From: a virus
Length of the DNA stretch: 21,857 nt
Virus record (IMG/VR): IMGVR_UViG_3300021957_005751
Coordinates: 1-21,857 of that record
Direction: 5' to 3' (one strand)
The notes beneath the pieces were generated by a model that was not told the origin of the DNA, searched no databases, and saw nothing but the letters and a program-made list of their open reading frames with translations. Each line of letters starts with the position of its first letter. Position 1 is the first letter of the stretch. Made by a program: the position numbers and the translations under genes. Of this stretch, positions 1-18,526 are shown in pieces.

Positions 1-138
1 GTCCAAAGCTTGGACAGAAGGAGTGCTTGATGCAAATTTGAAATCTTCGCATTTTGCTATCTTTTCTTGTAACCTGCTGCTCAAAGAGCTTGTTCCTATG
101 ATTTTGAAACTTGTTTGCATTATTTATTATAATAATCA

Positions 139-222: not shown

Positions 223-2106
223 ATGGCATCTGAAGGAAGGAATAAGGCAGCAAAAAGTTTATTGGATCTACAACCGACAGCGGTTCTAGAGCTTTTCTTG
301 TTATACCCTGATTTTAAAAACGAACCTAGTAAGTTTTATACTTTCCATCCGGGTTCTGTATTCAAGAATCCTGTAGTCTGGAATGGGTTGCAATACATGC
401 CTTTGTCCGTAGACACAGAAGGTTTCGGCATATTCGGGGATGGTACTTTACCTAGACCTAAGATAAGAATAGCCAATACAGATAAGATAATTACTGTATT
501 GCTGCAGCAGTACTCAGACCTCAAAAATGCCGTAATATACAGAAAGAAAGTCTTTGTAAAACACTTAGATGATGCCAATTTTGATGGCGGTAACCCTTTT
601 GGTGTTGCAGATGGCAATGCAGAGATAACAGAGGAAAAGTATTTAATCGGTCAAAAAGTACTAGAAAACTTCAATTATGTGGAGTTTGAGTTAAATTTAC
701 CAACAGATCTAGACAATTTTGATGTAAACCAAAGGACTGTAAACGCCAAGTATTGCTATTGGCAGTATAGGGGGTTAGGCTGCGGATACCAAGGTAAGCC
801 TATAGAAACAGCAACTGCGGAACCTTTCAAAGACCCAAATGGCAATATTGTGCCTGTTGATCTACAAGACGATTTCAACACTTCTCGTTTTGAATACAAC
901 GCAAACAATCAGTATTTTGTGGCACGTAATGGTGATGATAATAAGCTTACAGCCTGTTACATTGAAAACAAAAAATTAATAATAGATAGGGATAAGAACG
1001 GACTGCCAATCTACTTTAGGGCTTGGTATGTGTGTGTTCAAGCTCATAGCTCAACAAACCCACAGTTCCCAGAAGGGAATCCTAGTTATTGGCAACAGGA
1101 TAATTGCAGTAAAAGCATACAGTCTTGTAAAAGAAGGTTTAGTGAGACAAAAACTTACCAAAAGTTTATCGGTGCGGCATCACAAAATTTGAAATATGTC
1201 TCATTTAAAGAGAGGTCAGAGTCAAGTCCTGTCGGTATTCAGTTTGCTAGTGCAGCTAGTTTATTTACTAGTGCTAATTCAGTTTTGACCTTTCAAAACT
1301 CAAACGCAAAAGCTTTCAGCATAACCTTTTGGTTGAGAAATACAAAATCGCAGGACTCAATAAAGACCATATTCTCTTCTAGTCACGATGGTCAAATCAA
1401 TAGGGTCCAGAACACAACAAAAAAGACTTCACCTTTATACTACTACCAAAAGGGTGTAAAGAACGTCTTGAGTGAATCTTTTGGAGAAGAAACTCGAAAA
1501 GAAAACGTCTTTGGTTTTGCTTCCATTGTTTGGAATAAAGAGCAGTTGATTCACTCTTGGAATGACACTGTAAAACAAAAAGCCCAAGGTGTTGTAAGCA
1601 CATCTGACAATACGCCAGATTTCTTTTCTTTGTTTGAGCTTCAACAAATTGGGACAGCGCCTCGTCACAATGTGTCTTTTATGGGTGATATCGCTCAAGT
1701 TTGTGTTTGGGATCGGGCTTTAACAACTGATGAGCTTACAAAATTAAGAAAGACAAATGTGTCTAGGGATGCTCCATTCAAAGATGTGTTTATGCCTCTG
1801 GAGTATTCTCAGTGTACTGGGGAGTTAGCTACATTAACTGAGGAAGCTGGTGCAGGTGGTTTAGTAGCTTGGTATGATATGAATACAGGAGCTTTAGGTT
1901 CAGAAACCGGACTTTTAGACAGCTCTTCTCACAATCTTCATCTCACTGGTTATGGGGATTTAAGAGCTGACAACTTTGAAACAGTTAGTTATATTAACGA
2001 AACTACAGACTTTGTAGAAAGCACTCAAGAATACTTCTTTTTGCCTTTCGGAGGGTTTCCGGGGACAGATGGATACGACTACAACCCAAGACCTTCCCAA
2101 CAATGA
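223..2106 (+). CDS. L: Phage minor tail protein L (lambda gpL family) with inserted LamG-like domain
   Basis: Homologue of lambda gpL, the Fe-S-cluster tail-tip protein that helps form the tip complex with I and J. The N-terminal part (about 1-165) carries the gpL beta-rich domain. It is followed by the family signature CYWQYRGLGCGY (Cys178, Cys187) and a second pair in DNCSKSIQSCKRRF (Cys295, Cys302); these four cysteines are the likely cluster ligands. The protein is 627 residues against 232 in lambda. Most of the excess is a LamG/concanavalin-like domain at about 335-515 (SITFWLRN, then AQVCVWDRALTTDELTKLR), with further beta-rich sequence to about 600. The glycine-rich gpL end LPFGGFPG reappears only at 607-614, so the domain interrupts the gpL fold. 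The ATG at 223 is preferred because the family similarity starts soon after it; no Shine-Dalgarno is visible. Its stop overlaps the next gene by ATGA. Confidence 0.88.
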   Translation: MASEGRNKAAKSLLDLQPTAVLELFLLYPDFKNEPSKFYTFHPGSVFKNPVVWNGLQYMPLSVDTEGFGIFGDGTLPRPKIRIANTDKIITVLLQQYSDLKNAVIYRKKVFVKHLDDANFDGGNPFGVADGNAEITEEKYLIGQKVLENFNYVEFELNLPTDLDNFDVNQRTVNAKYCYWQYRGLGCGYQGKPIETATAEPFKDPNGNIVPVDLQDDFNTSRFEYNANNQYFVARNGDDNKLTACYIENKKLIIDRDKNGLPIYFRAWYVCVQAHSSTNPQFPEGNPSYWQQDNCSKSIQSCKRRFSETKTYQKFIGAASQNLKYVSFKERSESSPVGIQFASAASLFTSANSVLTFQNSNAKAFSITFWLRNTKSQDSIKTIFSSSHDGQINRVQNTTKKTSPLYYYQKGVKNVLSESFGEETRKENVFGFASIVWNKEQLIHSWNDTVKQKAQGVVSTSDNTPDFFSLFELQQIGTAPRHNVSFMGDIAQVCVWDRALTTDELTKLRKTNVSRDAPFKDVFMPLEYSQCTGELATLTEEAGAGGLVAWYDMNTGALGSETGLLDSSSHNLHLTGYGDLRADNFETVSYINETTDFVESTQEYFFLPFGGFPGTDGYDYNPRPSQQ

Positions 2107-2498
2107 ATGAAAAACAAGCTTTAGAAACTATAAAAAAAATATGCGAATCTAACGAATATATAGAGATTTGTGGTTTTTTGGGTTACGATAGGTCTTCAGA
2201 TAAGTATGTCGTTAGTCAACAAGATAACATATCAGAAGATCCTTCTAAATACTTTATGATAGATCCTATTGACTACCTATTGTTCAAGGACAAGTGTGAA
2301 ATGGTGGCTGTTTACCATAGCCATACAGAGGGTAGTGAGCAACCTTCTAAGTTCGACATCAAAATGGCAGAGAGTTGTTGCGACCCTTTTTTGATTTACA
2401 GCCTAGAAACTAAAAAAATTCATATTTATAAGCCTAAAAACATGGATTTAGATGTAAGTATACTTAACAGGGTAAAGGATTGCAATGACCAAAATTAA
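2103..2498 (+). CDS. K: JAB/JAMM-domain tail tip protein (N-terminal half of lambda gpK)
   Basis: A 131-residue Mov34/MPN/JAB metalloprotease-fold protein matching the N-terminal domain of lambda gpK, a tail-tip assembly protein. The JAMM zinc motif is complete: Glu21 in EICGFLGY, His72 and His74 in YHSHTEG, Ser82 and Asp85 in PSKFD, which fits H-x-H-x7-S-x2-D. An active zinc hydrolase is therefore possible. Lambda gpK also has a C-terminal NlpC/P60 cell-wall hydrolase domain; it is absent here, and the next gene in the other frame is the I homologue, not a split NlpC/P60. The start overlaps the L stop (ATGA) and the end overlaps gene I by 14 bases, so translation is probably coupled. The family is clear; the target (tail protein processing, or an isopeptide-like substrate) is unknown. 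Confidence 0.85.
   Translation: MNEKQALETIKKICESNEYIEICGFLGYDRSSDKYVVSQQDNISEDPSKYFMIDPIDYLLFKDKCEMVAVYHSHTEGSEQPSKFDIKMAESCCDPFLIYSLETKKIHIYKPKNMDLDVSILNRVKDCNDQN
2475..2479 (+). promoter_or_regulatory. Shine-Dalgarno AAGGA of gene I
   Basis: AAGGA lies five bases before the ATG at 2485, inside the end of the JAB gene. It is the clearest ribosome binding site in the window and supports the chosen start, which creates a 14-base overlap. Most other genes here lack one. Confidence 0.6.
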
Positions 2499-3075
2499 AC
2501 TACATGGTATACTGGCTAAGGAGTATGGAGAAATCTTCAACATGGAGATCTCCAAGCCAAGAGATGTTATAAAAGCTATAGATTGCAATCGTTCTGGGTT
2601 CAGGAGAAGAGTGGTGGATCTGCAGAAGGAGGGGTTTATTTACGATATTCTGGTGGACCGAAAAAGGATGAACAAGGAGTCATTCTTGAATAGCAAGAAC
2701 CCTAAGCAGATAGATTTAGTCCCTGTGATAGTCGGTTCTGGGTTAACAGTTTTAGAAGCTATACTTGTTGCGGTGGCTCAAGTAGTTATAAGTTACGCTC
2801 TAATGGACCCCGGAACATTGGATGGTGGGGAGGCGACAGTGGGAAGCACCAAAGGCTCCTTACTTTTTCAAGGGGGGAATGCAAACATAGCGAGCCAAGG
2901 TAGCCCAATACCTATAGGTTACGGCAGGTTGAAGGTAGGCTCTCAGATAGTGCAAAGCTCTGTAAAATCCTTCCCACAATCCATAGAGTCGTCCAAGGTT
3001 ATGACATCGAATCAATTAACCATTATTGATTCACCTGAGGCTGAAGTAAAATCTAATAAGGTGGACACTGCATAA
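2485..3075 (+). CDS. I: Tail assembly protein I (lambda gpI family)
   Basis: A 196-residue homologue of lambda gpI, a protein needed for tail-tip assembly that acts together with L and J. Residues 1-80 form the ubiquitin-like beta-grasp region (MTKIKLHGILAKEYG at the start, a typical gpI opening). A hydrophobic, alanine/valine-rich segment follows at about 80-106 (IVGSGLTVLEAILVAVAQVV), resembling a membrane-active or membrane-spanning helix. A glycine-rich linker leads to the conserved C-terminal motif SPIPIGYGRLKVGSQIVQS (140-158), which is diagnostic for the family. The final 35 residues are polar and not conserved. Position between K and J is the canonical order. Its TAA overlaps the J start as TAATG, implying re-initiation. 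Confidence 0.88.
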   Translation: MTKIKLHGILAKEYGEIFNMEISKPRDVIKAIDCNRSGFRRRVVDLQKEGFIYDILVDRKRMNKESFLNSKNPKQIDLVPVIVGSGLTVLEAILVAVAQVVISYALMDPGTLDGGEATVGSTKGSLLFQGGNANIASQGSPIPIGYGRLKVGSQIVQSSVKSFPQSIESSKVMTSNQLTIIDSPEAEVKSNKVDTA

Positions 3076-6000
3076 TGAAACATCTAGAAAAAAAAATAAA
3101 TCTAAGAGGTGGTTTGTTCGGTAGTAAACCCAAAGTTAAACCAGCTACTTTAAGGCCACCTGCTATCGGGGATTTCCAATTTGCCTCTTCCTTTAGTTAT
3201 GTGGAGAACCTAGATCTTATATCAGACGGGCCTATAGAGGGCTTGGTGAACAAAGAAGGCTCGCTGCTTGACCCCCAGAACTTGTCACAAGGTGTCTACT
3301 TAAACGGAACACCAGTTCAGGTTTCCAATAATTCCAAGGTGCTGGATGTAGAGATTGACTCCGATTTTAAAAAAATATCAAGTGGTGGATCTGAAATCTT
3401 TGATACGACTGCAGCGCTAGCTAGTAAATCCTTCTTTAACACCATAGAAAATGAAAGAGGGAGGAAAGGTGTATTTTTGCACCACGCATCCGATTACAGT
3501 AACAAAAAACCTGTGCAAAGGTTGTATAATGTTGTCCAAGGTTTGAGTACTTTCAGGTATTTGTCCACATCTCAATTCACTTCTGCAATAACAGGCAAAG
3601 GTGCATTGGTGACAAATGGCTATACACAAATACACGTATCTTCTGATGCTAACAATGATATAGCATTGGTTTTCGCCTCTAGACCTATCAGGTCTGAGAA
3701 AGAAGGTGAGGTTGTTAATCATAGGGCTTTCCAGTTTGGCGAAACTAGTTTTTCAAGTGTGGGTGAAGTTCAAAATGCAAGAAGCCAAGCCTTAAAAACC
3801 TTTGCAGATACAAACAGTAGAAAGCTGTTGTCAGATTTGTTGGATATCTGGGACGATGTAACAAACTACCCAGAGGGTCACCCGATGAGAGTATCCATAG
3901 ATAGGGCTATGAGGATCAACTTTGGCCAGAATTGGCAGTCGCAAGCTTCAGAATCTAGTAGGGAACTTTATTTCCTTAAAAAGATTTTTGGCAAATTAAG
4001 AAGTTACGACAAAGGTGGGGCTATAGTTCTCTTTTCAGACGACTTCTCAATTCAAAGCAGCAGGACAATCACCCAATCTAGCGTTTCAATTCAACCTGCA
4101 AGTTCTACCACTTCAGAGAGTCCACTAGCTACAAGAAATAGGGTAGTTAACTTGCTTATCCCTGTTTTAGATTCTGGCGGTGTAACGAATGGAAGTGTTA
4201 TAGGTATTTATGTTGTATTGACAGACGACACTGAATCTGACGATTTGCCAAAATCTTACAAGAATAAAGCTATTCAAGTCGGTGAGTCTGCAATGGATTT
4301 CTTTAAAAACTTAAACGGTTTTAAACTTTTCGAAAACCCAACTGACATTCTTGACCAGAACTCTACTGTAAAGTACAACTACTCTAACGTTTTAGTCGAA
4401 GAAAGGCTTGGTGAATCATCACAATTACCATTTCGTTATTTTAACGAAGTTTTTATTGATAAAAATATAAACGAAAGGCTTTATGGCCCTTACCGACTCA
4501 ATGGGGAGGTGCAAAGGTTAAGGGTTCAGTCTGGAGATAAGCCAGAGGATTTAAAAAAAGATGATGCAGATTTTATGTTTTATACTTCTGATACTGACGG
4601 TGATCTACTGCCAGACTCAGAAGGTAGCAATGACAACCTAAGGGATGGAAAAGGCACTGCAAATAGAAGTTTTACAGATTGGAATTCAACTAATTCAGCC
4701 AATAACTTAGACGAAGAAGCAGTCTCTGTTACTCATGTGATCTACAACCCTAATGTAGAAGAGGTTTTTATAACATTGCAGGTTGATGCTCTATTTGACA
4801 CTAACGAAAGAGATAGAAACCCTGAAAGTGATAAAGCTATAAAAGCTGGAGATAAAATACCAGCAGTTGTAAATTTTGAGATTGAAGTCGGGGTGATAAA
4901 AACAGATGGCACAGAAGTACCTAAAGATACTAGAAGGTACAGGATGGCTGCTGTTATAGAAGGGACCACCTTGATAGATATTGGGAATGCTCACTCGACA
5001 GGTCAATATTCAGACTTTGAGTATTTGCAATTAGTTGACGGGGGTAGTGTAGAGAACCCAGTCTCAGAACCATTTAAACTTCCACCTGTAAAGCAGGTTA
5101 ACACGACAGACAGTATAGAAAGCGTGTCTGAGAAAAGATACGTAAGAGTAACCAAGTTATCTACTGAAACATTTTCCATATTAATAAGCAAAGATGTTTC
5201 CCTTTATAAGGTAACGGAAATATTAAAATGTAATTTGCGCTACCCTTACTCCGCTATAATAGGCACTAAGTTGGACTCAAGACAGTTTTCTAGCATACCG
5301 GAAAGAAGGTTTGATGCTAGGTTGAAAAGGGTATTGATCCCCAGTAATTACCACCCGACAAGAGACGACTCTTTAAAAACAGACAAGAGGTATCACGATA
5401 AAAAGACTGACTTAGATAGTTTGAGTCAAAATGATAAGTTGGTTTATGATGGTGATTGGAATGGAACTTTTGTAGAGGGCTGGACTGATAACCCAGCTTG
5501 GATAGTTTTTGACCTGTTAACAAACCCTAGGTATGGATTTGGGCAACATATTTCAGAGGACGAAGTTAACAAGTGGGAGTTGTATAAGATAGGTAGGTTT
5601 TGCGATGCTGTGGATAACGATGGAAATTTTGTTGGTGTACCGGACGGGAGGGGCGGCCTAGAACCTAGGTTTTCTTGTAATATATTATTCAATAATAATG
5701 AGAAAATTTATGATGCGGTGCAAACAATATCTAGTTTGTTCAGAGGTAAAACTTTTTTTAGAAGCGCAGAAGTTTCTTTCGCTGACGAAAGGGTGAAGGA
5801 ACCTATAGCGTTATTTAATAACATAAATGTAAAAGACGGATTGTTTAACTACGCAAATTTAAGAAGGGACCAGCAGTTTAATACTGTCGAGGTTGGCTAC
5901 TTAGACAGGTTTGAGGATTTTGTTCCAAAGATTGAGGTGGTAGAAGATGCTGAAGATATACGTAACAGAGGTGTTTTCAAAAATAGAATAGACGCCTTGG

Positions 6001-7508
6001 GTGTCACCTCTAAAGCTATGGCTAGGAGAATAGGCCAGCATCTTGTCTACAGGACCGTAAAGGAGAATCAAAAGGTTGCATTTAATACAGGGTTGGAAGC
6101 TTTGCTTTGCCAACCCGGAGATTTAATCATAGTGGAGGATGAATTAAAGAGTAACAAAACTAACTTTGGAAAAGTACTCAGTGTGGACTCAAGCAGTGAA
6201 TACTTAAGGTTGAGTAGCCCGATTGATAGTTCTATACAGACAGGCTTATTGACTGTCTATATCCCAACAGGTGACAGCACAACTCAAGAGCTTTCAGATT
6301 TGGCGATCAGTGGCAGAGAGAGAGTAAAGGGTGCTTTTTCTATAACAGGAGACAATGCTATACCCGGACTAGATGACTATACTGGGTTTTATAACTTCTC
6401 TGGCTATTTAAGCGCTTACTCGCAAAGCGTTTTCGATAGTGAGGATGACGGTGAGTATATATTTGTAGATTACCCTGTGTATACAGGCACTGAGAACAAA
6501 AAGATCTATTATCATGTCGATGACCTAGACGGTCCAGACCCCTTAGGGAAGTGGATATTCGCATCAGGATCCCTGTTGGCCCATGAGACAGATTTAACCA
6601 CTACGGCTTCAAAAAATGAATATGATTTTTACAGTAGGATAGTGAGTGGTTCTACGGATTTGGAACGAAACTACTCGTTGTTTACATTGAACAACAATGC
6701 ACATTCAAAAGTTTATTACTACGATGGGTCGCTAAGCAATGGCTCTATATCAGGTGCTGATATATTTTCTGGTGTGGACAATTCGACTAACGGGGTGTCT
6801 ATATCAGACATCACCATAGGTTCTAACCCTCAGATCTTAACACTTCAAGTTACAGGATTAGTAGGGAATGTAGCTGATGAGATAGGGTCTTATGTCAGTG
6901 GGGTGGATCTACCTGACTACCTACAGCATATAAAACTAGGGAGCCCTTATCGTTTTGAAATCAAAGAAGCTTCTGACTTTTTGTACAAAATAGATTCTAT
7001 AAAAGAAGATACCCCCAATGACTACCTAGTGTCAGCTTCAAAATTTGACACAGGGAAGTACGAACTAATAGAAAACAATATTTCTTTCGAGCCAAAAGAG
7101 AACACTTACGCTTATCAAGTTCAAACCCAAGTGGGTGATGTGACATATGACACTTTGTCTTCTCCTCAAAATCTATCTTTGACGACAGGTTTGGGGACAA
7201 ACGCCAACACTTTCTTTATAAGTGGTGATTGGGACCAAGTGACAAACAATAATGGGTACAATGCCATCTTGAATTATGCAAATGGGTCAGTATCAGAATC
7301 TTCTATAACACAGAACACAAACTCAGTTAAATTCGATAACATAGGGGTTATCGGGAAGTTCACTTTAAATGTGAAAACTATAGGAGATAATACAAACAAC
7401 ACAAGCAAGTTCTTTGATTCTGATTATAGCACCATAACATCATTCTTTCTTTACGATAACCTTTCAGTTTTAGACCGACCAGTTGTAACTAATATTACAT
7501 TCTCATAA
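3075..7508 (+). CDS. J: Central tail tip / host specificity protein J (lambda gpJ family), enlarged
   Basis: A 1477-residue homologue of lambda gpJ (1132 residues), the trimeric central tip protein that plugs the tail and contacts the receptor. The N-terminus has the family motif NLDLISDGPIEGL (45-57) followed by LSQGVYLNGTPVQ. The conserved core runs from about 689 to 1025: YPYSAIIGTKLDS, then DWNGTFVEGWTDNPAW, LLTNPRYGFG (about 794-823), GGLEPRFSCN near 860 and CQPGDLIIVEDE near 1012, all with clear lambda counterparts. Between about 90 and 689 the protein is much longer than lambda and includes DTDGDLLPDSE at 506-516, a D-x-D-x-D loop resembling calcium-binding TSP3/EF-hand loops. After the core come beta-rich, fibronectin-III-like segments to the C-terminus, where host specificity usually resides. 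The start is fixed by TAATG overlap with I and a weak AAGGTGG ten bases upstream. Confidence 0.9.
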   Translation: MKHLEKKINLRGGLFGSKPKVKPATLRPPAIGDFQFASSFSYVENLDLISDGPIEGLVNKEGSLLDPQNLSQGVYLNGTPVQVSNNSKVLDVEIDSDFKKISSGGSEIFDTTAALASKSFFNTIENERGRKGVFLHHASDYSNKKPVQRLYNVVQGLSTFRYLSTSQFTSAITGKGALVTNGYTQIHVSSDANNDIALVFASRPIRSEKEGEVVNHRAFQFGETSFSSVGEVQNARSQALKTFADTNSRKLLSDLLDIWDDVTNYPEGHPMRVSIDRAMRINFGQNWQSQASESSRELYFLKKIFGKLRSYDKGGAIVLFSDDFSIQSSRTITQSSVSIQPASSTTSESPLATRNRVVNLLIPVLDSGGVTNGSVIGIYVVLTDDTESDDLPKSYKNKAIQVGESAMDFFKNLNGFKLFENPTDILDQNSTVKYNYSNVLVEERLGESSQLPFRYFNEVFIDKNINERLYGPYRLNGEVQRLRVQSGDKPEDLKKDDADFMFYTSDTDGDLLPDSEGSNDNLRDGKGTANRSFTDWNSTNSANNLDEEAVSVTHVIYNPNVEEVFITLQVDALFDTNERDRNPESDKAIKAGDKIPAVVNFEIEVGVIKTDGTEVPKDTRRYRMAAVIEGTTLIDIGNAHSTGQYSDFEYLQLVDGGSVENPVSEPFKLPPVKQVNTTDSIESVSEKRYVRVTKLSTETFSILISKDVSLYKVTEILKCNLRYPYSAIIGTKLDSRQFSSIPERRFDARLKRVLIPSNYHPTRDDSLKTDKRYHDKKTDLDSLSQNDKLVYDGDWNGTFVEGWTDNPAWIVFDLLTNPRYGFGQHISEDEVNKWELYKIGRFCDAVDNDGNFVGVPDGRGGLEPRFSCNILFNNNEKIYDAVQTISSLFRGKTFFRSAEVSFADERVKEPIALFNNINVKDGLFNYANLRRDQQFNTVEVGYLDRFEDFVPKIEVVEDAEDIRNRGVFKNRIDALGVTSKAMARRIGQHLVYRTVKENQKVAFNTGLEALLCQPGDLIIVEDELKSNKTNFGKVLSVDSSSEYLRLSSPIDSSIQTGLLTVYIPTGDSTTQELSDLAISGRERVKGAFSITGDNAIPGLDDYTGFYNFSGYLSAYSQSVFDSEDDGEYIFVDYPVYTGTENKKIYYHVDDLDGPDPLGKWIFASGSLLAHETDLTTTASKNEYDFYSRIVSGSTDLERNYSLFTLNNNAHSKVYYYDGSLSNGSISGADIFSGVDNSTNGVSISDITIGSNPQILTLQVTGLVGNVADEIGSYVSGVDLPDYLQHIKLGSPYRFEIKEASDFLYKIDSIKEDTPNDYLVSASKFDTGKYELIENNISFEPKENTYAYQVQTQVGDVTYDTLSSPQNLSLTTGLGTNANTFFISGDWDQVTNNNGYNAILNYANGSVSESSITQNTNSVKFDNIGVIGKFTLNVKTIGDNTNNTSKFFDSDYSTITSFFLYDNLSVLDRPVVTNITFS

Positions 7509-7509
7509 C

Positions 7510-10500
7510 ATGGATAACTTTTATACATATACTCCTTCTTCTTCAGAATTAAATACCGGGATGTTTGAGTTTGACTCTGTATATAGTGGGAACACTACAG
7601 ATGTTACTCAAACTTCTAGTGGAAGCGGTGTCCATAATTATAGAGACTTAACATTAAACCTTCGGATTCAAGACAGGGATGGGCAAGAGGTAACGGACGC
7701 CAGAGACTTTCTAAAAAGTGCGTTTCTTACAGAAGCGAATATAAGTATACTAGAGCCAGACGGCACAGTGGCCTATGCTAATTACCAATCTGGTTACAAG
7801 CAGTCCAGTTTTACCTTTACTGAGCAGAACAACATAGATATCTTTGGTTTCTATGCCCCACATTTTGGTATAAAAACTGAGATTAAAGATAGGGACGATA
7901 ATGTTACTACTAGTGAGTTTTATTTTTATGGTAATAGACCAAGAGTTTCATCTGTTACTGTCACAGATACAGCTACTGGACACAAGTTTACCTCTTCTTA
8001 TGGTTCTGCATCTACCCAAGCATTGTCTGGGATTTCTGGGCAATTAAAAGTCGATTTTGATTTCTTTAACAGCCCAGAGTATACTAATTTCGATCATGTT
8101 GATATATACTGGGCTTCTACGGTGGGTTACTTTAACGACAACCCTTTGTCAGCGGACCATCTCGCAGCCACAAAAACCTTATCTCAAAACAAGAACCAAA
8201 GCGTGTTTTTGTATGAGGAGAATATACCTCAGTTCACAGGTAGTGATCTGTACCTAACGATAAAACCATACAGTACAATTGGTCTGGGTGATCAGTGGAC
8301 AGTTGGCCCCTTCAAATTTCAGTATGCAGAGAAGCCCAATACAAATTATCTGACTGAGATATCTAGCGGTGACGTAACAGGAGCCTTAGGGTTTTTGCCT
8401 ATAAGCGGGGGTTTGAATTTACAAGATGTTACTGAGGTTGGGGCCGAGACAACAGAAGATGTTACTTTTAAAGGTGGGCTCACTATAAATAACACAGACT
8501 CCTCTATAGTTTTTTACAACCCTGAAAACTCAGCAGAAAATGCTAAAATTGTAGCGTCCCATACTAGTAGTGAAAGCTCCTTGCTGTTTCAAGCGGACAA
8601 GTTCTTATTTAACGTTTCAGGGGCTTCAGACGAAGTCTCTATAGAAGGTAATACCATAGGCTCTTACGCTTCTGCAATCCTACTGGGGACAGCCAATACT
8701 GTGCATGGTGATTATGATGCTATCATAGCAGGAACACAGAACGTCATATCTGGGGATGGGACTTACTCATCTGATTTTGACTTTATTGGAGCAGGTTCCG
8801 GTAACAAGATTACAGGTTCTAGTTACTCTAGTATAGTCGGAGGAATAGGTAACTACATATACAAAGGCTCTAGCAACAGTTTCATCGGTGGAGGCACAGG
8901 CAACGTACTAGAAGCTTCTCCCAATAGTGTTATAGGTGGGGGCGTTAACAATTACATAGATAGCGCAGAGTCTGTACAGATATTTGGGTCTTATATAACT
9001 GGATCTACCCCTTTAGATGGCTATATTTATTTATCGGATAATCAAAACAGGTCAAAAATACCTGATGCGTCAGATACGCTATTTATAGATTTCGAAGGAG
9101 GAGTAGATGTAAAAACAGGAGACCTTACTGTAGCACAAGGCATAACGATGGGGGGTAATACAGTAGCCACTCAGTCGTGGGTCTCCTCTCAAAACTACTT
9201 GACTTCTGAAACTGACGATCAAACCCTTGACGAAGTCCTATCCCAAGGTAATACCTCTGCAAGCGGAATAACAGTAGGCGCTTCAACTATTAGTGGGTCT
9301 CTTGAGGTCTCAAACAATGACACAGGTATATCAGATATTTTTCATGTAGACGGTTTGAATGGCCGTTTATTCGGGGTAACTGATGAAGTTACCGGGACTG
9401 TATTTTCAGTCAACGATGCCGCTGGTCTTCCTATCGTAGAAGTGGAATCCACCTCTACATACGACAAGATCACAATGGGCGAGTATGGTAGTGATCTTAT
9501 TGTTTTAAGTGGTCAGACTAGCGCACAACTAACTGGTTCTCAAATTGCTTCTCAGTCATGGGTTGGCCAACAAGGGTTTCTTACTTCTGAGACTGACGAT
9601 CAAACTCTTGATGAAGTTCTTTCCCAAGGTAATACTTCTAATTTAGGCATCGATGTAGGGGCAATAACTGGGTCTGGTAATATATTTTTACAGGGAGATG
9701 CTCAACACGTTTTCTTTGGAGGCGCTAATACTTTTGTCGGTGAGTCCTCTAATAGTCAAAGGTTGCAATTAAGAGGGGGTGGCAGCACTAGTTCTGATAC
9801 TGTTATTATAGATAACGATGCTAAGATGGGTTTCGGGACAACCCCTTCTTACGGATTACATTTAAAAACAAATCCTGATATATTCTTTGAAGGTAATATA
9901 GCCCAAAATGATTATTTATTTGATGGGGGTGGTGAGAATCTAACTGTTTTTAGAGACCCTGATAATACCAATAGGACATACTTAACTTTTGATAAAGATG
10001 ATGAACTTTACGTTGGTCGTCAAGGGTCTGTTGATTTTATAGTTAATGGAACTAACCAGCTAAATACTCTGATACAAACAGATGCATCAGAAAACGATGT
10101 ATTTTTCCCTGATGGCAAATACGGGTTTGGGTTTGAAGGTGTTGAGCCTTCCGCTTTAGTTCATGTAAGTGGTGATTCTTTCTTTGATGGTAATGTTGGC
10201 ATAGGAACAATTAATCCAAGTGAGGAACTAGATGTTATAGGAGACGTAAAAGCTAACCGCTATATTATACAAGATGGAGCTTCCTCTATATCAAGAAATG
10301 GAAGTATTGCCCGTATATACTCAAATGCAGGAACTGATTTTTCAGTATGGCTTGGAGGTTTCCATGAGGCTTTATCTATAAGAAAGTCTGCTACAGATGG
10401 CCTTATAGGAATTAACGATACTACTCCATCTTATCAATTAGATGTAAACGGTACAGGTCATTTCGTTTATGACCTCTACGTTGATGAGGATATCACGATG

Positions 10501-13500
10501 GGCGGTAATATTGTCCTCACTGGGATTACCAGCGGCGACATCACTGGAGCGCTAGGTTACACCCCGCTCTCTTCTGAGACTGACGATCAAACTCTTCAAG
10601 AAATCCTTGATGCAACTCCTTCCGCTACAGGAACGATTAACGTTGACGTTTTCTCTGGGGTTACTGGTGTTCTTGATGTTATCCAAGCTACTGGAGATTT
10701 AACGCTTCGACCTTTAGGTTCTGATGGTAATGGGGGTAAATTAATTCTAGATGGAGATTCTTTTACTAGTGCGTTAAAGATTGAGAATTATGGTCAGATA
10801 GAATGGGGTGCATCAACTTATACATTTGGATTAAGTTCAACTTATTGGCAGTGGAAGAGTTGGTCTAAACCTATTGAAATTCAAGGTGGTGCTGGAACCG
10901 TTATGTATATCGGTACTCCAGCAGGTGATGGCAACGTTGGTATTGGGACAAGTAGTCCTAGCTCACCTTTACATATTGATGGCGGTACAACTTCTGAAGT
11001 TTTAAAGATAGAGGCTGATAATGACCCTTATCTTAGATTTGTTGAAAACGGCGCTAACAAAGGTTACATTCAATACACTAGTAATAGCGCTTACATTCAG
11101 AATAATAATGCTGCTGGCGCATTATACATTAGAATGGGGAGTACCAATACAGCCACTTTTAAAGGAGATGGTGACTTTTCTGTTGATACAGACACTTTAT
11201 ATGTAGACGCTGCCAATGACAGAATTGGCATCAATAATGCAGCACCCGCTTATGATCTAGACGTAAACGGTACAGGTCATTTCGCTTATGATCTCTACGT
11301 TGATGAGGATATCACGATGGGCGGTAATATTGTCCTCACTGGGATTACCAGCGGCGACATCACTGGAGCGCTAGGTTACACCCCGCTCTCTTCTGAGACT
11401 GACGATCAAACTCTTGATGAGGTTTTAACTCAAGGAAACGTCTCCTCTCAAGAGATGACCGTGGGTAAAGTTGAGGCTGAAGAGTTTATCGGTAATTTAC
11501 GAGGAGCTGTTTCATTCACAGCTAATGCAGGAGAAGCTCTTACAAAAGGTGATGTTGTTTATATCTCTGGCGTGTCTGGTAACAAGACGGTGGTTGCTAA
11601 AGCTGACGCTGATGATTCTAATAAAATGCCAGCATTTGGTGTGGCAAATGAAACTGTCAATATTAACGCTGATGTCACTATTATTAACTTCGGCGCAATA
11701 AACAATCTTGATACAGATACTCCGAATTGGGATGAAGGTGATGAGCTTTATGTTAGTAATACTGCGGGGACTTTAAGTAAAACGGCTCCTTCTGGTGAAG
11801 GTTCTCAAATCCAGAAGATGGCAAAAGTCACAAAAAGACATGCATCTACTGGTTCTATTACCATCATGGGCGCAGGTCGAACCAATGCAGTCCCCAACCT
11901 GAATGAAGGTCGTTTATTTGTTGGTAATTCTAGCAATGAGGCTGTAGCAGATGATACTGCTTATGTTGATATTGCTAATAGTAGGGTTGGTATAGGAACA
12001 ACCAGTCCTATCGAAGAGCTACACGTTGCTGGAAATGCTTTGATAACAGATGGGGTAATGCCAACTTTGGGCAACTATGCATTTGGGTTCGGTAGACACT
12101 CAGGTGGGCCAAGTGTTTACGGGGGAATGTATGGCAACGGTCTTAATAGATATTTAACCTTAAGAGGAGCCAACGGAATTAAATTTTTCGTGAATAACCA
12201 CGCAGGTGACAGTGTATTTACTATAGACGGAGATCCGGGCAACGTTGGTATAGGGACAACTAGTCCCGATTCAAGACTACATGTAGTAGGTAGTGCAGAT
12301 TCAGATGCAGCTTCTCTGGGGTCTGAAATAGTAGCATCTCAAACGGCTTCAGGAACGAACTGGTCGGGTAGTTCTATAGCCACAGGTTATACGCATACTG
12401 CTGGGAGTACGGATGTTTTACTAAGTACTTTAAATGCTACAACTAACAAGTTGTATAGGGTCGAGATAGAAACCACAAATGTCACAGCGGGTAGATTAGA
12501 TAAGGTTAGTTTTGGTGGTATTGAGCAGACCGTATATATAAGCGGTAACACAACTCGGGTTTTATCTTTAAAAGCTATAAGTACTGGGCCTTTAACTTTT
12601 GAGTGTCAGAGTGCGTTTGTTGGAACAGTTACAGTTTCTTCAGTAAAAGAAATTGTAGCTTCAGATTCTCTATCTGTTCTTACAAACTCTGGGGGTTCTG
12701 GCAGGTTAGAAACTAGAGTTTTTTCTTCAACTGATTTCTTCTTAGGCGATTCCGCTGGTGAGAATAGAGTATCATCGGGTAACAATATAGGAATAGGAAA
12801 TTTTGCTTTGCAAAGAATTGCCACAGAGGGTATTAACCTTGCGATAGGTAACAGATCTTTAAGTAATTTAGTAAATGGCGCATATAATGTAGCAATAGGT
12901 CATGATATTTTAGGAAATTACCAAAAGAGCGGTAACGTTTATAACATAGGGATAGGCAACAACGTCATGGACGGGAGTTCTATAACGGGCAATAGTAATA
13001 TCATGATGGGCTTCTGGGCAGGAGCTGATATGACTTCCGCTAGTGGTAATCTAGGTATTGGATATGCTGTATTCGGGGATCTTACTAGTGGTAGTGCCAA
13101 TCTATCTCTAGGTAATCATAGCTTAACGAATGCTACTTCAGGAGGTTCTAATGTAGCTTTAGGTAGTAGAGCTTTAAATTCATTAACTACAACATCTCAA
13201 AACATTGCGATAGGGTATCAAGCAGGTCGATATGCTATTGGGAATGCTGCAAATGAAACACCAAGTTCTTCTATTTATATAGGTTACAACACCAAAGCAG
13301 CAGCTAATGGAGAAACGAATCAAATTGTCATTGGGGCTAGCGCAGAAGGAATCGGTGCTAACACGGTCACTTTAGGTAACGACAGTGTTGTTACAACCGC
13401 TCTTAAAGGTAACGTCGGTATAGGAACAACTAGTCCTGATGCTCCACTCTCCGTAAAAGTAGGTTCGTCAACGACAGAAGCTAAAGTATTTGAGCTTCTC

Positions 13501-15648
13501 GCTAATGGTGGTCGAGCATTGTCCATCTTACAACCAGATAACGCTCAGTCAGCGGACCCTTGGACGTTTGCGACAAATAATAGTTATACGTTCAGAGTTG
13601 ATGCCATCGATGCCCTGAATATTGACTATGCTGGCAACGTTGGTATAGGGATAACTGATCCTGACACGGAGCTAGAGGTTGGTGGCACAATTAAAGCCTC
13701 AACTCATTCGGATGCTATAGTCATAGGAAGCCCGACAACGGTTAAGTGGAAGATGGGTGTTTACGGTGCTAACGATTTACTTATTAGAGATCCTAATAAC
13801 AACACTAAACTATCGATACTAGCAGACGGCAGCGTTGGTATAGGAACGACGAGTCCGTCAGAAAAACTTGATATTTTCGGAAATATATTAATTTCAGATA
13901 CAGCTAACGATAAATATTTCGGTTCAAACGTGAACCTAATCCTTAACGCAGATGCAGACGGTAACAGCGGAGATGCGTATAGAAACATCATATTCCAGAA
14001 TAGAGGTTCTGAAACAGCCCGTATTGATTCTTCTGGCAATGTTGGTATAGGAACAACGAGTCCGTCCTCTCGGTTGTCTGTCCAAGGCGAAGAGCAACAT
14101 ACTACATCAACAATTAGTTATGCTGATGCTTTATTAGATATTTATAATGATTGGGAAAGCAACACTAATGAGAAAGGGGCCATCTTAACGTTTAGTGATA
14201 ATTATTATGATGGATCAAATTACCATAGAACCACCAGAGCTGCGATTAAAGGTGGCACAGATAATGTAGGCAATACTGCTGATGGTTTCTTAGGCTTCTA
14301 TACAGATTCGGGAGGTGCTAATAGCGCAAACGAAAGAATGCGGATAGACCATGATGGTAACGTTGGTATAGGAACAACGAGTCCGACAGACAAACTTACC
14401 ATTCAACAGACTACTGATGGGAGCGGTGTAAAAATTCTTGGATTTGACGATGAATCTGGTGAGAGTTTGCATCTTTCTATACAAAGTAGTGGTAATTCTC
14501 GACTAAATGCGACAAGATCTATTAATATTTATAGTGGTGACTCTTATGGAGGAGGTATTGGTAGCGGATCAATTACTGGGGTTACTTGGGATGCTTTTAA
14601 CCAATTTAAGTTTACAGCAGAAAGTAACGCAAGGATTCCTTTATCAATTGAGGGTGCGGTTTCCCAAGTAGGAGATCTCTTTAATATTACTAGTAATGGT
14701 GGTAGTGCTGGTGATCTACTAACTGTTGATTCCGCTGGTAACGTCGGTATAGGAACAACAAATCCAATAGCGCCTTTGGACGTAGACGGAAATATCTACT
14801 CAAATGGTGCTTTGTTAGTAGATAGAATATTCTCTAGAGGAGGGTCAACAGATCTAAAACTGGATGCTAGGTCGGGCTACGGTGTAAATGTCAGAGGAAG
14901 CGGCAATGCATCAATAGCTTATTTTGATTATGACTCTGGTAGCGTTGGTATAGGAACAACGAGTCCATCTGAAAAATTAGACGTTCAAGGCAATGTTAAA
15001 TTAACAGGGAATCTTAATGTTGGAGGTTATATTCATCCAAATGACGAAAATGGTAATTTACGTATATTTGGGGGCAATGACACAACAAACGATGCTCAAA
15101 TATTGTTACATGGAAATGCTGATTCTTGGGGTTCATTAGAATTTAATTATGGGTATGACTCTACAAATAGCTTTTTAAAAATTAGCCAAGGCTCTAATGA
15201 GCATTTGCGTATAACAAACGGCGGTAAAGTTGGTATAGGGACAAATAGTCCTGACTATGAACTGCACGTTATTGGAACTGCTTCCTTCACTGACACAGTA
15301 GCGGGAGCCTACTTTGAGGAGAACGCATCTAACCCAGAATTAAAAGAGTTAGATACAGGAACGATTCTTACTATGGACGAAGAAGGCGAGATAGTTCCCT
15401 CTTGTAAGGCGAATGACACAATGGTCTTTGGAGCTTCTAAGAGGGGTTACAAGCAGCCGATTGTAATGGGAGCGGAACCTATTAAGATGACAGGGCCGAT
15501 TAAGGTCGGAGACTTCATCACAACCTCTAGTAGATACGGTCACGGGATGAGGTCGGAAACAAAAGAAGTTGGAACAATTATAGCACAAGCTATGGAAAGT
15601 GGAGATGGAGACTCTTATAATATTAAAGCAATGATAAGAAAAATGTAA
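7510..15648 (+). CDS. Giant modular tail fibre protein (2712 aa) with VGIGTTSP and YadA-like repeats
   Basis: Probable trimeric receptor-binding side or tip fibre. Residues 1-285 are non-repetitive, beta-rich and may attach to the J C-terminus (inference from adjacency, one base after the J stop). SGDVTGALGF at 286 opens the shaft. Trimeric-autotransporter (YadA head-like) repeats occur at about 388-500 (VGGIGNYI, IGGGTGNV) and 1755-1965 (NVAIG, NLSLGNHSLT, NIAIGYQAG). Linkers SETDDQTL begin at 566, 693, 1022 and 1295, the third with Q for D after TL. About fifteen (V/I)GIGTTSP-x-LDV modules are spread from about 773 to 2574. A GDVVYISG-type globular domain is at about 1318-1460 and a jelly-roll-like domain at about 1597-1720. 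The C-terminal ~100 residues carry GPIKVGDFITTSSRYGHGM, a common phage-fibre terminal domain. No Shine-Dalgarno is visible. The fibre role is well supported; the receptor is unknown. Confidence 0.88.
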   Translation: MDNFYTYTPSSSELNTGMFEFDSVYSGNTTDVTQTSSGSGVHNYRDLTLNLRIQDRDGQEVTDARDFLKSAFLTEANISILEPDGTVAYANYQSGYKQSSFTFTEQNNIDIFGFYAPHFGIKTEIKDRDDNVTTSEFYFYGNRPRVSSVTVTDTATGHKFTSSYGSASTQALSGISGQLKVDFDFFNSPEYTNFDHVDIYWASTVGYFNDNPLSADHLAATKTLSQNKNQSVFLYEENIPQFTGSDLYLTIKPYSTIGLGDQWTVGPFKFQYAEKPNTNYLTEISSGDVTGALGFLPISGGLNLQDVTEVGAETTEDVTFKGGLTINNTDSSIVFYNPENSAENAKIVASHTSSESSLLFQADKFLFNVSGASDEVSIEGNTIGSYASAILLGTANTVHGDYDAIIAGTQNVISGDGTYSSDFDFIGAGSGNKITGSSYSSIVGGIGNYIYKGSSNSFIGGGTGNVLEASPNSVIGGGVNNYIDSAESVQIFGSYITGSTPLDGYIYLSDNQNRSKIPDASDTLFIDFEGGVDVKTGDLTVAQGITMGGNTVATQSWVSSQNYLTSETDDQTLDEVLSQGNTSASGITVGASTISGSLEVSNNDTGISDIFHVDGLNGRLFGVTDEVTGTVFSVNDAAGLPIVEVESTSTYDKITMGEYGSDLIVLSGQTSAQLTGSQIASQSWVGQQGFLTSETDDQTLDEVLSQGNTSNLGIDVGAITGSGNIFLQGDAQHVFFGGANTFVGESSNSQRLQLRGGGSTSSDTVIIDNDAKMGFGTTPSYGLHLKTNPDIFFEGNIAQNDYLFDGGGENLTVFRDPDNTNRTYLTFDKDDELYVGRQGSVDFIVNGTNQLNTLIQTDASENDVFFPDGKYGFGFEGVEPSALVHVSGDSFFDGNVGIGTINPSEELDVIGDVKANRYIIQDGASSISRNGSIARIYSNAGTDFSVWLGGFHEALSIRKSATDGLIGINDTTPSYQLDVNGTGHFVYDLYVDEDITMGGNIVLTGITSGDITGALGYTPLSSETDDQTLQEILDATPSATGTINVDVFSGVTGVLDVIQATGDLTLRPLGSDGNGGKLILDGDSFTSALKIENYGQIEWGASTYTFGLSSTYWQWKSWSKPIEIQGGAGTVMYIGTPAGDGNVGIGTSSPSSPLHIDGGTTSEVLKIEADNDPYLRFVENGANKGYIQYTSNSAYIQNNNAAGALYIRMGSTNTATFKGDGDFSVDTDTLYVDAANDRIGINNAAPAYDLDVNGTGHFAYDLYVDEDITMGGNIVLTGITSGDITGALGYTPLSSETDDQTLDEVLTQGNVSSQEMTVGKVEAEEFIGNLRGAVSFTANAGEALTKGDVVYISGVSGNKTVVAKADADDSNKMPAFGVANETVNINADVTIINFGAINNLDTDTPNWDEGDELYVSNTAGTLSKTAPSGEGSQIQKMAKVTKRHASTGSITIMGAGRTNAVPNLNEGRLFVGNSSNEAVADDTAYVDIANSRVGIGTTSPIEELHVAGNALITDGVMPTLGNYAFGFGRHSGGPSVYGGMYGNGLNRYLTLRGANGIKFFVNNHAGDSVFTIDGDPGNVGIGTTSPDSRLHVVGSADSDAASLGSEIVASQTASGTNWSGSSIATGYTHTAGSTDVLLSTLNATTNKLYRVEIETTNVTAGRLDKVSFGGIEQTVYISGNTTRVLSLKAISTGPLTFECQSAFVGTVTVSSVKEIVASDSLSVLTNSGGSGRLETRVFSSTDFFLGDSAGENRVSSGNNIGIGNFALQRIATEGINLAIGNRSLSNLVNGAYNVAIGHDILGNYQKSGNVYNIGIGNNVMDGSSITGNSNIMMGFWAGADMTSASGNLGIGYAVFGDLTSGSANLSLGNHSLTNATSGGSNVALGSRALNSLTTTSQNIAIGYQAGRYAIGNAANETPSSSIYIGYNTKAAANGETNQIVIGASAEGIGANTVTLGNDSVVTTALKGNVGIGTTSPDAPLSVKVGSSTTEAKVFELLANGGRALSILQPDNAQSADPWTFATNNSYTFRVDAIDALNIDYAGNVGIGITDPDTELEVGGTIKASTHSDAIVIGSPTTVKWKMGVYGANDLLIRDPNNNTKLSILADGSVGIGTTSPSEKLDIFGNILISDTANDKYFGSNVNLILNADADGNSGDAYRNIIFQNRGSETARIDSSGNVGIGTTSPSSRLSVQGEEQHTTSTISYADALLDIYNDWESNTNEKGAILTFSDNYYDGSNYHRTTRAAIKGGTDNVGNTADGFLGFYTDSGGANSANERMRIDHDGNVGIGTTSPTDKLTIQQTTDGSGVKILGFDDESGESLHLSIQSSGNSRLNATRSINIYSGDSYGGGIGSGSITGVTWDAFNQFKFTAESNARIPLSIEGAVSQVGDLFNITSNGGSAGDLLTVDSAGNVGIGTTNPIAPLDVDGNIYSNGALLVDRIFSRGGSTDLKLDARSGYGVNVRGSGNASIAYFDYDSGSVGIGTTSPSEKLDVQGNVKLTGNLNVGGYIHPNDENGNLRIFGGNDTTNDAQILLHGNADSWGSLEFNYGYDSTNSFLKISQGSNEHLRITNGGKVGIGTNSPDYELHVIGTASFTDTVAGAYFEENASNPELKELDTGTILTMDEEGEIVPSCKANDTMVFGASKRGYKQPIVMGAEPIKMTGPIKVGDFITTSSRYGHGMRSETKEVGTIIAQAMESGDGDSYNIKAMIRKM
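8671..9009 (+). repeat. First YadA-head-like repeat block in the giant fibre
   Basis: Residues about 388-500 contain repeated hydrophobic-glycine-glycine-asparagine steps (AILLGTANTV, DFIGAGSGNKI, SIVGGIGNYI, SFIGGGTGNVL, SVIGGGVNNYI) spaced 14-18 residues apart. This periodicity is that of the left-handed parallel beta-roll in trimeric autotransporter heads, which implies a trimeric shaft segment. The fold is inferred from pattern only. Confidence 0.65.
9530..9605 (+). repeat. 76-bp exact repeat, copy A (linker in giant fibre)
   Basis: These 76 bases are identical to 18847-18922 in the third fibre gene, 9317 bases downstream. They encode the linker TGSQIASQSWVGQQGF followed by LTSETDDQT, in the same reading frame in both genes. 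Identity stops sharply at both ends, suggesting a recent copy or recombination between the two fibre genes. Confidence 0.9.
10441..10596 (+). repeat. 156-bp near-identical in-frame repeat, copy 1
   Basis: This copy matches 11260-11415 with only three mismatches, and its last 123 bases (10474-10596) are identical. It encodes DVNGTGHFVYDLYVDEDITM followed by a GGN...SGDITGALGYTP linker and SETDDQTL. The offset of 819 bases equals 273 codons, so recombination between the copies would keep the frame. Confidence 0.92.
11260..11415 (+). repeat. 156-bp near-identical in-frame repeat, copy 2
   Basis: Second copy of the 10441-10596 repeat. It differs at three positions near its 5' end, one of which changes Val to Ala (GHFAYD instead of GHFVYD). 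It ends in SETDDQTL, after which this copy continues DEVLTQGN where copy 1 continues QEILDATP. Confidence 0.92.
12772..13405 (+). repeat. Second YadA-head-like repeat block in the giant fibre
   Basis: Residues about 1755-1965 repeat a (N)-hydrophobic-(A/G)-(I/L)-G step: NNIGIGNFAL, NLAIGNRSL, NVAIGHDIL, NIGIGNNVM, NLGIGYAVF, NLSLGNHSL, NVALGSRAL, NIAIGYQAG. Spacing is about 20-28 residues. This is close to the head repeats of trimeric autotransporter adhesins and suggests a rigid trimeric beta-roll section. Confidence 0.75.
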
Positions 15649-15650
15649 TC

Positions 15651-15833
15651 ATGGAAGCGATTTTAAAATACAATAAAAATACCCAAAAGGTGACAATAGA
15701 AGATGAGTGCTGTGACTACGTGATTTGTGATATTGCAGAAAATGATGATGAGGTTATTATTAGATTTGATCATGATATAAAACCAGAACTCTTACCAGAA
15801 CTCTTCTTTGATCAACCAGAACCAATTGAATAA
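15651..15833 (+). CDS. Small acidic protein of unknown function (60 aa)
   Basis: I do not recognise this family. The product is 60 residues with 17 acidic and 5 basic residues, three cysteines (20, 21, 26) and a proline/glutamate-rich end (QPEPIE). The middle looks like alternating beta strands (YVICDIAE, EVIIRFDHDI). It starts two bases after the giant fibre stop and its TAA overlaps the next ATG as TAATG, which argues for a real, coupled gene although no Shine-Dalgarno is present. Its place between two large fibre genes suggests a fibre-assembly chaperone or small accessory tip protein, but that is inference from position and charge only. Confidence 0.6.
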   Translation: MEAILKYNKNTQKVTIEDECCDYVICDIAENDDEVIIRFDHDIKPELLPELFFDQPEPIE

Positions 15834-18526
15834 TGTCTGCATATACTTCGACACAAACTGGGTTATGGAATGACTCTGCTACTTGGGGTGGTGGAGGCTA
15901 CCCATCTACAGATGATACCGCTACAATTAATCATGAAGTGGTTTATAATCTTACGAGTAGTTCTTCTCCTTTCCATGGGGATGTAACAATCAACTATTCT
16001 AATGGGGGCGGCCACTTACGTCATTTGACAGGAACCCATATGAATATGAATGGAGTCCTAAGGGTGAATGGTGGCATCTACGAAATGGTTGATGATGTTA
16101 CATTGGCTTTTACAGGCGACAACAGTCACGATCATGGTTTGTATATAGACAGTGATAATCATACTACATTTTTGGCTACAGGTACGACCCCCGTAGCTGA
16201 AACAAGAATGTCAACTAGTGGGGATGCTGGAGATCTTTATATACCAGTAGAAGATGCTTCAAGTTTCCAGACGGGAGATTGGATATCTGTGTTTTTTAGA
16301 TATGGGGATTTAAAATCTAGGGAAGATTTCTTGAACGAAGTGAATTACCCTAGTGGAGTTTTACAAGGTGATGGGGTTCTCAATACAGGTCAGTATTCTG
16401 GAGCTGTATTCACTTCAAATGAAAATAGGTTACACAATGAAGGCTCTCGCAATGTGTCGGAAGGATTCATCATCCATGATATTGATTCAAACAATATTTA
16501 TCCCCGTGATTTGGTTGGGCCTGAAGCCACCATTACAGCGGTCACATCTAATACTATAACAGTAGACAATGCAAAAGTATTTAGAGAAAGTCAACCAATT
16601 ATTTTTGGTAATGGTTCTACTAGGACGGCTTCTACAATAACAAGTATAAATTATAGCATAAACAAGATTACTCTAGCGGATACCCTTTCTGATTCTAATG
16701 TTATCGGTGAAAAGGTTTATCTGGGCGGTTTAAAGATACACAAATACAAAAGAACTGTTGTAAGAACTGTAGGTAATCAAGTCGCTTCTGAAGCGGCGGC
16801 TAACGCCACAACAATTACATTGAATAATGTGGGAGATTATTCTGTCGGCGACAAGTTTTATGTAGAGCATACGGTAGAAGAGTATAGTGATTGGGCGACT
16901 GTACTCCCAAATGACTCTAACTCTTGGTTTCAAGATCCACAGATAAGGCATGAAATTACAGGGATTAATGGGAGTACCTTAACATTTAGTCCCGCTTTAC
17001 CATACAAGGTTTATGCTGGAAGTTTTGCATATAAAGCTAACAGACCAATAACTATTAAAGGCGCTTCCGATGACCCTAGCGATGGAACTTGTAAACCTTA
17101 TATATATGCAGTTAATAGTGGTTCAACTAGGACTCAAGGGTTAATGACCCGTTATAGCCGTAAACTATTAATGAAAGATGTCGAGGTTTTGGGTGTCGGG
17201 AATAGTAGTAGTAATTATCAGTTTTTTGTTAGAGGAGGTTGCAATGATGGATACTGGAGGTATAGTACTGTTATAGAAGGTGTTGTTTCGGATGGTATGG
17301 GTAACAATAATTTTTCGTATTTACGTCTTGATGGTAGTCATTATATGACTCATACTAATATTATTTCAGCGAATTCATATAGAACTTATTACGGAGGACG
17401 AGAAGGTTGTTCTTTGGTTAATTCCGTGGCTTTAAATGGTAGGAGAGCTGCGGATGGTGTTGGTACGCAAAACGTTGCAGGTAAGGTTGCTTATATTAGA
17501 GCCACAAGATGTCGTGAGAACTTTAGAATATATTCTAGGAGTATGGGTATGGCAATAGCGGCATACCAGATATATGCAGAAAATAGATACTATAATTATT
17601 GTTTTTTGAGTAGGAATTATATTCATCAATGTCATTTTAAAGGGGAGCATGGTTTAGTTAGAGATTTCCACAATGAATGTTATGCTTCTTACATTAAGTT
17701 TGATCATATAGCGCAATCTGGGAGTACTAATTCTCGTTATTTTTATAATGCATCTAGCGATAGGTTGGGTTATTACCATGCTTATGGTGGGACTTTATAT
17801 GAAATGAATTACGAGATTGATAATGATGTTATGTTCCATGGGTTTATGATTAAAAACAACCTCAGAGAATCGGCTTTTGAAGCAAGCAATTCATGGGGTA
17901 ATAATTATTATTACCCTACTGGAGATATGAGAGTTTTAATGTTAAGACCAAATGAAACAGTAAAAATAAAAGTAGCGGTTAAATTACATGAAAACAACCC
18001 AAATGTAAATTGGGCTGACAGACCTTACTTAATTTACTTTTTGGGTGGCCACCAATCAGGGCATAGAAATTCCGCAAGAGGTGTTCCTTATTTAAATATA
18101 ACAGGCAGTGAGGCCATGGATCATGACTTTGATTTTGTGGGAGATGTGAGTAAGATGGGCAAAAATATACTATTTCCAGACCATAACTATGGATATGAAG
18201 GTTCTGAAAACTATGATAGTAGCGATATGGTAAATTCATTTTCAAGCAGACCACAGTTTGACTCTAAGACTCAATATGTAGAACAGACCCTAACAATCAC
18301 AAATGAAGCTGCATTTACAAGATCTTGTACTTATGGGTTGTTAGCTATAAATTCTGATGCTTCTAGTTATGGTTTTTACTTTAAAGATATGGTCATAGCC
18401 AGAAGTCATTCTCAGACATTACTTGGTAAATTGGGGGATAAATTTAGAAGGCTCCTCCCTGCTTATGTTACCAAGGGAATATCAGCAACAAAGCAAAAGA
18501 AACGTATTGGTGGTGCAAGATTATAA
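15833..18526 (+). CDS. G8-domain tail protein with probable beta-helix (897 aa)
   Basis: Probable receptor-binding or glycan-targeting tail protein. Residues 1-120 match the G8 domain pattern: GLWNDSATWGGGGYPSTDD (Trp12, Trp18, Pro24), then TINHEVVYN and a run of strands. Two similar short domains follow at about 125-190 and 320-395 (DASSFQTGDWISVFFR; DYSVGDKFYVEHTVE). From about 405 to 665 repeated short strands with glycine/asparagine turns resemble a right-handed parallel beta-helix, as in pectate-lyase-like spikes. About 690-870 looks like a jelly-roll or carbohydrate-binding C-terminal domain. The last residues are strongly basic (KQKKRIGGARL). No catalytic residues could be identified, so lyase or hydrolase activity is possible but unproven. 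Start is fixed by the TAATG overlap with the small acidic gene; the next gene follows after a 22-base gap. Confidence 0.72.
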   Translation: MSAYTSTQTGLWNDSATWGGGGYPSTDDTATINHEVVYNLTSSSSPFHGDVTINYSNGGGHLRHLTGTHMNMNGVLRVNGGIYEMVDDVTLAFTGDNSHDHGLYIDSDNHTTFLATGTTPVAETRMSTSGDAGDLYIPVEDASSFQTGDWISVFFRYGDLKSREDFLNEVNYPSGVLQGDGVLNTGQYSGAVFTSNENRLHNEGSRNVSEGFIIHDIDSNNIYPRDLVGPEATITAVTSNTITVDNAKVFRESQPIIFGNGSTRTASTITSINYSINKITLADTLSDSNVIGEKVYLGGLKIHKYKRTVVRTVGNQVASEAAANATTITLNNVGDYSVGDKFYVEHTVEEYSDWATVLPNDSNSWFQDPQIRHEITGINGSTLTFSPALPYKVYAGSFAYKANRPITIKGASDDPSDGTCKPYIYAVNSGSTRTQGLMTRYSRKLLMKDVEVLGVGNSSSNYQFFVRGGCNDGYWRYSTVIEGVVSDGMGNNNFSYLRLDGSHYMTHTNIISANSYRTYYGGREGCSLVNSVALNGRRAADGVGTQNVAGKVAYIRATRCRENFRIYSRSMGMAIAAYQIYAENRYYNYCFLSRNYIHQCHFKGEHGLVRDFHNECYASYIKFDHIAQSGSTNSRYFYNASSDRLGYYHAYGGTLYEMNYEIDNDVMFHGFMIKNNLRESAFEASNSWGNNYYYPTGDMRVLMLRPNETVKIKVAVKLHENNPNVNWADRPYLIYFLGGHQSGHRNSARGVPYLNITGSEAMDHDFDFVGDVSKMGKNILFPDHNYGYEGSENYDSSDMVNSFSSRPQFDSKTQYVEQTLTITNEAAFTRSCTYGLLAINSDASSYGFYFKDMVIARSHSQTLLGKLGDKFRRLLPAYVTKGISATKQKKRIGGARL

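Follow-up and report, generated by a model that had tools for sequence, protein, structure and literature searches.

One question about lambda-type tips is what the iron–sulphur domain of the tail-tip protein gpL does on their outside (PMC10721106), and the gene L described here raises another: does this conserved tip protein carry a complete LamG-type domain within its own chain, and what might such a domain do there? The gene lies in the window, by which we mean the whole 21,857-nucleotide stretch of viral DNA that was analysed (IMG/VR record IMGVR_UViG_3300021957_005751). A first-pass annotation had proposed a LamG-like domain between the last cysteine motif of gpL and the LPFGGFPG end. Profile matches, the predicted fold, LamG-free relatives and a family of insert-bearing homologues all support this proposal, and it is now nearly certain that a complete LamG-type domain is inserted at that place. 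The features of the gene and of the three genes downstream are as follows.

223–2106, + strand: gene L, encoding the gpL tail-tip protein with two inserts, 627 amino acids (open reading frame and profiles)
262–723, + strand: HDI core, a lambda gpL-like tube-ring domain, residues 14–167 (fold match 8iyk_L, Z 13.6)
754–783, + strand: predicted iron–sulphur cysteine pair 1, C178-X8-C187 (invariant in 38 homologues; spacing as in lambda Cys173/Cys182)
841–1098, + strand: insert A, about residues 207–292, tentatively CBM5/12-like (absent in canonical gpLs; weak CBM_5_12 matches)
1105–1128, + strand: predicted iron–sulphur cysteine pair 2, C295-X6-C302 (invariant in 38 homologues; spacing as in lambda Cys205/Cys212)
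1141–2040, + strand: insert B, holding the LamG domain, residues 307–606 (4–13 residues in canonical gpLs, 4 in L203)
1183–1998, + strand: LamG/pentraxin-like fold, residues 321–592 (PF13385 over 359–505; fold Z 13.2)
2041–2064, + strand: gpL C-terminal motif LPFGGFPG, residues 607–614 (sequence)
2103–2498, + strand: gene K homologue with a JAB/MPN domain only, 131 amino acids (PF14464, E = 5e-10; phrog_30)
2485–3075, + strand: gene I homologue (phrog_32, E = 2e-24)
3075–7508, + strand: gene J homologue, central fibre/hub (PF13550, E = 2e-15)

The window protein matched PF05100 at E = 8e-37 (127 bits against a curated Pfam cut-off of 25) and TIGR01600 with 133 bits (NCBIfam cut-off 70.75), and PHROGs likewise assigned the product of 223–2106 to gpL. 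With the family profile as query, lambda gpL (8iyk_L) was recovered from PDB sequences at E = 5e-27, and the same structure was the best fold match for residues 14–167 (Z 13.6). In lambda, the [4Fe–4S] ligands of gpL are Cys173/Cys182 and Cys205/Cys212 (PMC10721106). The corresponding residues of the window protein, C178, C187, C295 and C302, are all invariant across 38 homologues, and the predicted ligands are all retained in this insert-bearing gpL. The HDI core fold, the four cysteines with equal spacing within each pair, the LPFGGFPG-type end and the L-K-I-J gene order are shared with lambda gpL (PF05100, TIGR01600; 8iyk_L) and its T1 and RcGTA homologues; relative to lambda gpL, between cysteines 2 and 3 the window protein has about 85 additional residues, and after cysteine 4 it has 300, which hold the LamG domain. 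Translation placed SCKRRF (with Cys302) and LPFGGFPG (607–614) where the first-pass annotation had read them, along with SITFWLRN and AQVCVWDRALTTDELTKLR, which it had taken as hallmarks of the inserted domain.

The insertion point can be fixed exactly from canonical gpLs and a LamG-free relative. The canonical set comprises the cultured phages S-H1, vsMR and PARCL1pr and 34 IMG/VR relatives whose complete sequences were read. These proteins have 4–13 residues between the CxxRF (SCxxRF) motif and the LPFGGFP-type end, compared with 300 in the window, consistent with the earlier statement that the last cysteine motif of a canonical gpL is followed almost directly by the C-terminal end. The LamG-free relatives L203 and L204 read SCKIRF-GNEN-LPFGGFPGTDGF, whereas LamG-free L197, L199 and L201 have a spacer of about 40 residues at the LamG site. 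Surveying gpL homologues for insertions at this point, as had been suggested, returned about 75 with an insert at the LamG site and the canonical ones without. One further relative of about 1,100 amino acids (L205, 3989–7309) keeps the LPFGGFPG end and has an insert of about 790 amino acids at the LamG site, in which no recognisable Pfam domain was found; we rejected it as a LamG homologue, as profile comparison was not significant except for a 14-residue IWRRKLT motif. A comparison of alignment A5 with L106, one of its own rows, is circular and was left out of account.

Searching the whole protein against Pfam matched PF13385 (Laminin_G_3) to residues 359–505 above the cut-off (E = 9e-7; 29.6 bits against 27.6), and insert B alone gave E = 2.8e-7 and 31.2 bits. 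The same profile was matched by 10 of 27 family inserts at E ≤ 0.1. An AlphaFold2 model of the window gpL built from 38 phage homologues, with a mean pLDDT of 61.5 (moderate confidence), contains a LamG-type fold over residues 321–592. Its top match was 4dqa, a Bacteroides protein annotated as putative carbohydrate-binding (Z 13.2, rmsd 3.1, 184 aligned), in a search whose background best Z is typically 7–8, followed by PAPP-A, pentraxins (Z about 10–11) and laminin LG domains. These matches, with 4dqa and the pentraxins foremost, bear out a ConA-like jelly-roll fold for insert B. The fold had been placed at residues 335–515; it is indeed present there, but its extent is wider (321–592). In the model, long strands open and close the domain (residues 311–326 and 585–599), which would suit a domain whose two ends come together where it enters gpL, and residues 595–627, including the LPFGGFPG region, have pLDDT below 50. 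A profile search of the insert B alignment against PDB sequences returned weak matches to pentraxins (E ≥ 0.016) and spurious ones to antibodies, and PHROGs contained no family for insert B. With Laminin_G_3/pentraxin-like lectins (PF13385; 4dqa, pentraxins, PAPP-A) the window domain shares an over-cut-off profile and a whole-domain fold match; it differs in being inserted with both ends within gpL, and is 10–15% identical to solved members.

The other insertion, insert A, had gone unnoticed in the first-pass annotation. Cys187 and Cys295 are separated by 107 residues in the window, compared with about 21–34 between cysteines 2 and 3 of canonical gpLs, and the additional stretch of about 85 residues shows the pattern Y..GD.V ... 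YVCV..NSGQ.PE.NP.YW. Matches to CBM_5_12 (PF02839) reached at best E = 0.02 and 15.4 bits, below the Pfam cut-off of 26.2, and were seen for insert A of 7 of 34 family members at E ≤ 1. The predicted fold of insert A weakly matched four Vibrio chitin deacetylase structures in their C-terminal regions (Z 4.5–4.8 over about 50 residues); these were the only matches with Z ≥ 2 among 254 chains, and we take the regions to be carbohydrate-binding modules. Foldseek gave no significant match for insert A, and an insert A profile matched nothing among PDB sequences. The sequence pattern and the weak CBM_5_12 matches suggest a chitin-binding type of module. Insert A resembles CBM5/12 modules (PF02839) in its aromatic/GD.V/W pattern and its weak match to the Vibrio chitin deacetylases, and differs from them in its sub-cut-off score and in sitting inside the iron–sulphur ligand set of gpL. 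Because it falls below the Pfam cut-off, with no PDB sequence match and nothing significant from Foldseek, we rejected its designation as a proven CBM5/12 and do not file it as such.

Both inserts and their places are a conserved family trait. Two scans of IMG/VR yielded about 75 full-length homologues on separate contigs, every one with both inserts, and the same architecture occurs on a 37 kb MAG contig (L196). These homologues, which carry the architecture in one open frame, refute an assembly artefact or the fusion of a neighbouring gene as the origin of the insert, an idea that the metagenomic source might otherwise favour and that we consider vanishingly improbable. The phages with this gpL are uncultured and mostly marine, from sea and brackish water; among 50,697 phage genomes in GenBank, no record covered 80% of the window protein, L086 or L203, and in open-access papers we found no published report of a LamG or lectin domain in gpL. 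A quick tree built from gpL core columns, with insert columns excluded, set canonical gpLs apart (SH-aLRT 100) from all insert-A proteins, among which the L197 type, with insert A only, was deepest and L203, also with insert A only, lay beside L205. The simplest history is that insert A was gained first and LamG later, with either one loss or one separate gain in addition. We did not accept a host assignment from the MAG contigs L196 (Flavobacteriaceae) and L197 (Bacteroidota), as gpL was found among 395 genomes of its phylum only in the genome holding L196, so that both may be stray phage contigs. Clade contigs also encode secreted proteins with PEP-CTERM-like C-termini (L196, 7969–8685, + strand; L208, 1086–1916, − strand), with the PEP-CTERM profile NF038120 scoring the L196 protein below its cut-off (E = 1.3e-4) and the L208 protein not at all; these proteins hint that the host has an exosortase system and makes exopolysaccharide.

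The L-K-I-J order is present in the window and in related loci. No NlpC/P60-type peptidase domain was detected in the K homologue (2103–2498), which consists of the JAB/MPN domain only, whereas gpK of many lambdoid phages is larger; a short K follows gpL throughout the clade. A divergent gene lies beside the start of the L operon in the window (1–123, − strand), in L196 (9265–9960, − strand) and in L197 (37–567, − strand), separated from gene L by an AT-rich gap. The divergent genes of the window and L196 look similar by eye, and that of L196 had no Pfam match. Two very large fibre-like proteins (7510–15648 and 18549–21857) share repeated modules, for example SQSWVGQQGFLTSETDDQTLDEVL and many VGIGTTSP repeats, and between them lies an 897-amino-acid protein without Pfam matches (15833–18526). 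These fibre proteins are further candidate adhesins and may carry out the main receptor binding, in which case the phage might adsorb without its LamG domain.

Sequence divergence within gpL bears on what the LamG domain does. Homologues other than L008 are 55–70% identical to the window protein over residues 1–206 and 12–27% over the LamG part; for L008 the values are 91% and 46%. Between close relatives, strong purifying selection acts on the LamG domain (L009, 172 codons: pN 0.002, pS 0.156). Synonymous divergence there, at 0.156, is far below the 0.536 of the core, a sign of recombination inside gene L. An exchangeable binding domain would agree with this pattern, but synonymous sites are saturated between lineages, so we did not accept positive, diversifying selection on LamG as proven.

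We favour, at somewhat better than even chances, a reading in which the LamG domain is an accessory glycan-binding adhesin exposed at the outside of the tip, comparable to an evolved Dit, and it probably gives the tip an additional hold on sugars of the bacterial surface. The best fold match, to the putative carbohydrate-binding 4dqa, and the chitin-module resemblance of insert A support this reading, as do the much faster divergence of LamG than of the core between lineages, the purifying selection on it within a lineage and the signs of recombination. The lambda tip has three gpL copies in a ring with the iron domain on the outer surface (PMC10721106), where the LamG domain would be displayed, and the C-terminal region of gpL is hypervariable and presumably near the cell wall (PMC13243795). 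By extension from the lambda structure, gpL would form a trimer around the tip, with three LamG domains exposed on the outside, above the central fibre J. By analogy, these would bind surface polysaccharide weakly and multivalently, and the tip would stay attached to the cell for as long as J or the side fibres need to reach the final receptor.

The LamG fold is also used for protein–protein contacts and structural roles, and many of the LamG/LNS and pentraxin domains that the predicted fold matches bind proteins. The domain might instead be architectural, packing on J, the Dit ring or the side-fibre bases to stabilize or assemble the tip without touching the host, which would agree with its strong purifying selection within a lineage, its retention in nearly all clade members and the prevalence of β-sandwich decorations in tails (PMC10721106). 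We regard this as unlikely, if still worth weighing, because 12–27% identity between lineages, compared with 55–70% for the core, is unlike a domain with a fixed partner and because the L-K-I-J operon is unchanged in LamG-free relatives. An adhesin for a protein receptor (a pilus, outer-membrane or S-layer protein) rather than a sugar is suggested by these protein-binding fold matches, but the best of the matches is annotated as carbohydrate binding and the adjacent insert A resembles a sugar-binding module, leaving this option improbable in our judgement. More speculatively, two sugar-binding modules would bracket cysteines 3 and 4, and contact with polysaccharide might strain or shield the iron–sulphur domain and so help to trigger tip opening; we give this little credence, but if true it would make the gpL cluster part of a surface sensor.

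The accessory adhesin reading finds its closest parallel in the evoDit of lactococcal skunaviruses, where evolved Dit proteins promote adsorption and made classical-Dit phages into which they were cloned fully infectious on EPS-bearing hosts (PMC10688798). In both systems a carbohydrate-binding-type domain sits in a conserved tail-tip ring protein and an accessory adsorption role is proposed. The window protein is not itself an evoDit and the likeness is in working only, as its carrier is gpL, a trimeric iron–sulphur hub protein, rather than the hexameric Dit; moreover, its domain is LamG-type and its host is uncultured and probably Gram-negative. Canonical gpL, gpL with insert A only and gpL with insert A and LamG form a natural series, which shows that the exposed iron–sulphur domain of gpL is a place where binding-type domains dock, and L203 and the window clade provide matched relatives for probing the host contacts of the tip. 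On the accessory adhesin reading, the ‘evolved Dit’ principle would apply beyond Gram-positive siphophages, reaching the iron–sulphur hub protein of lambda-type tails in marine and brackish waters.
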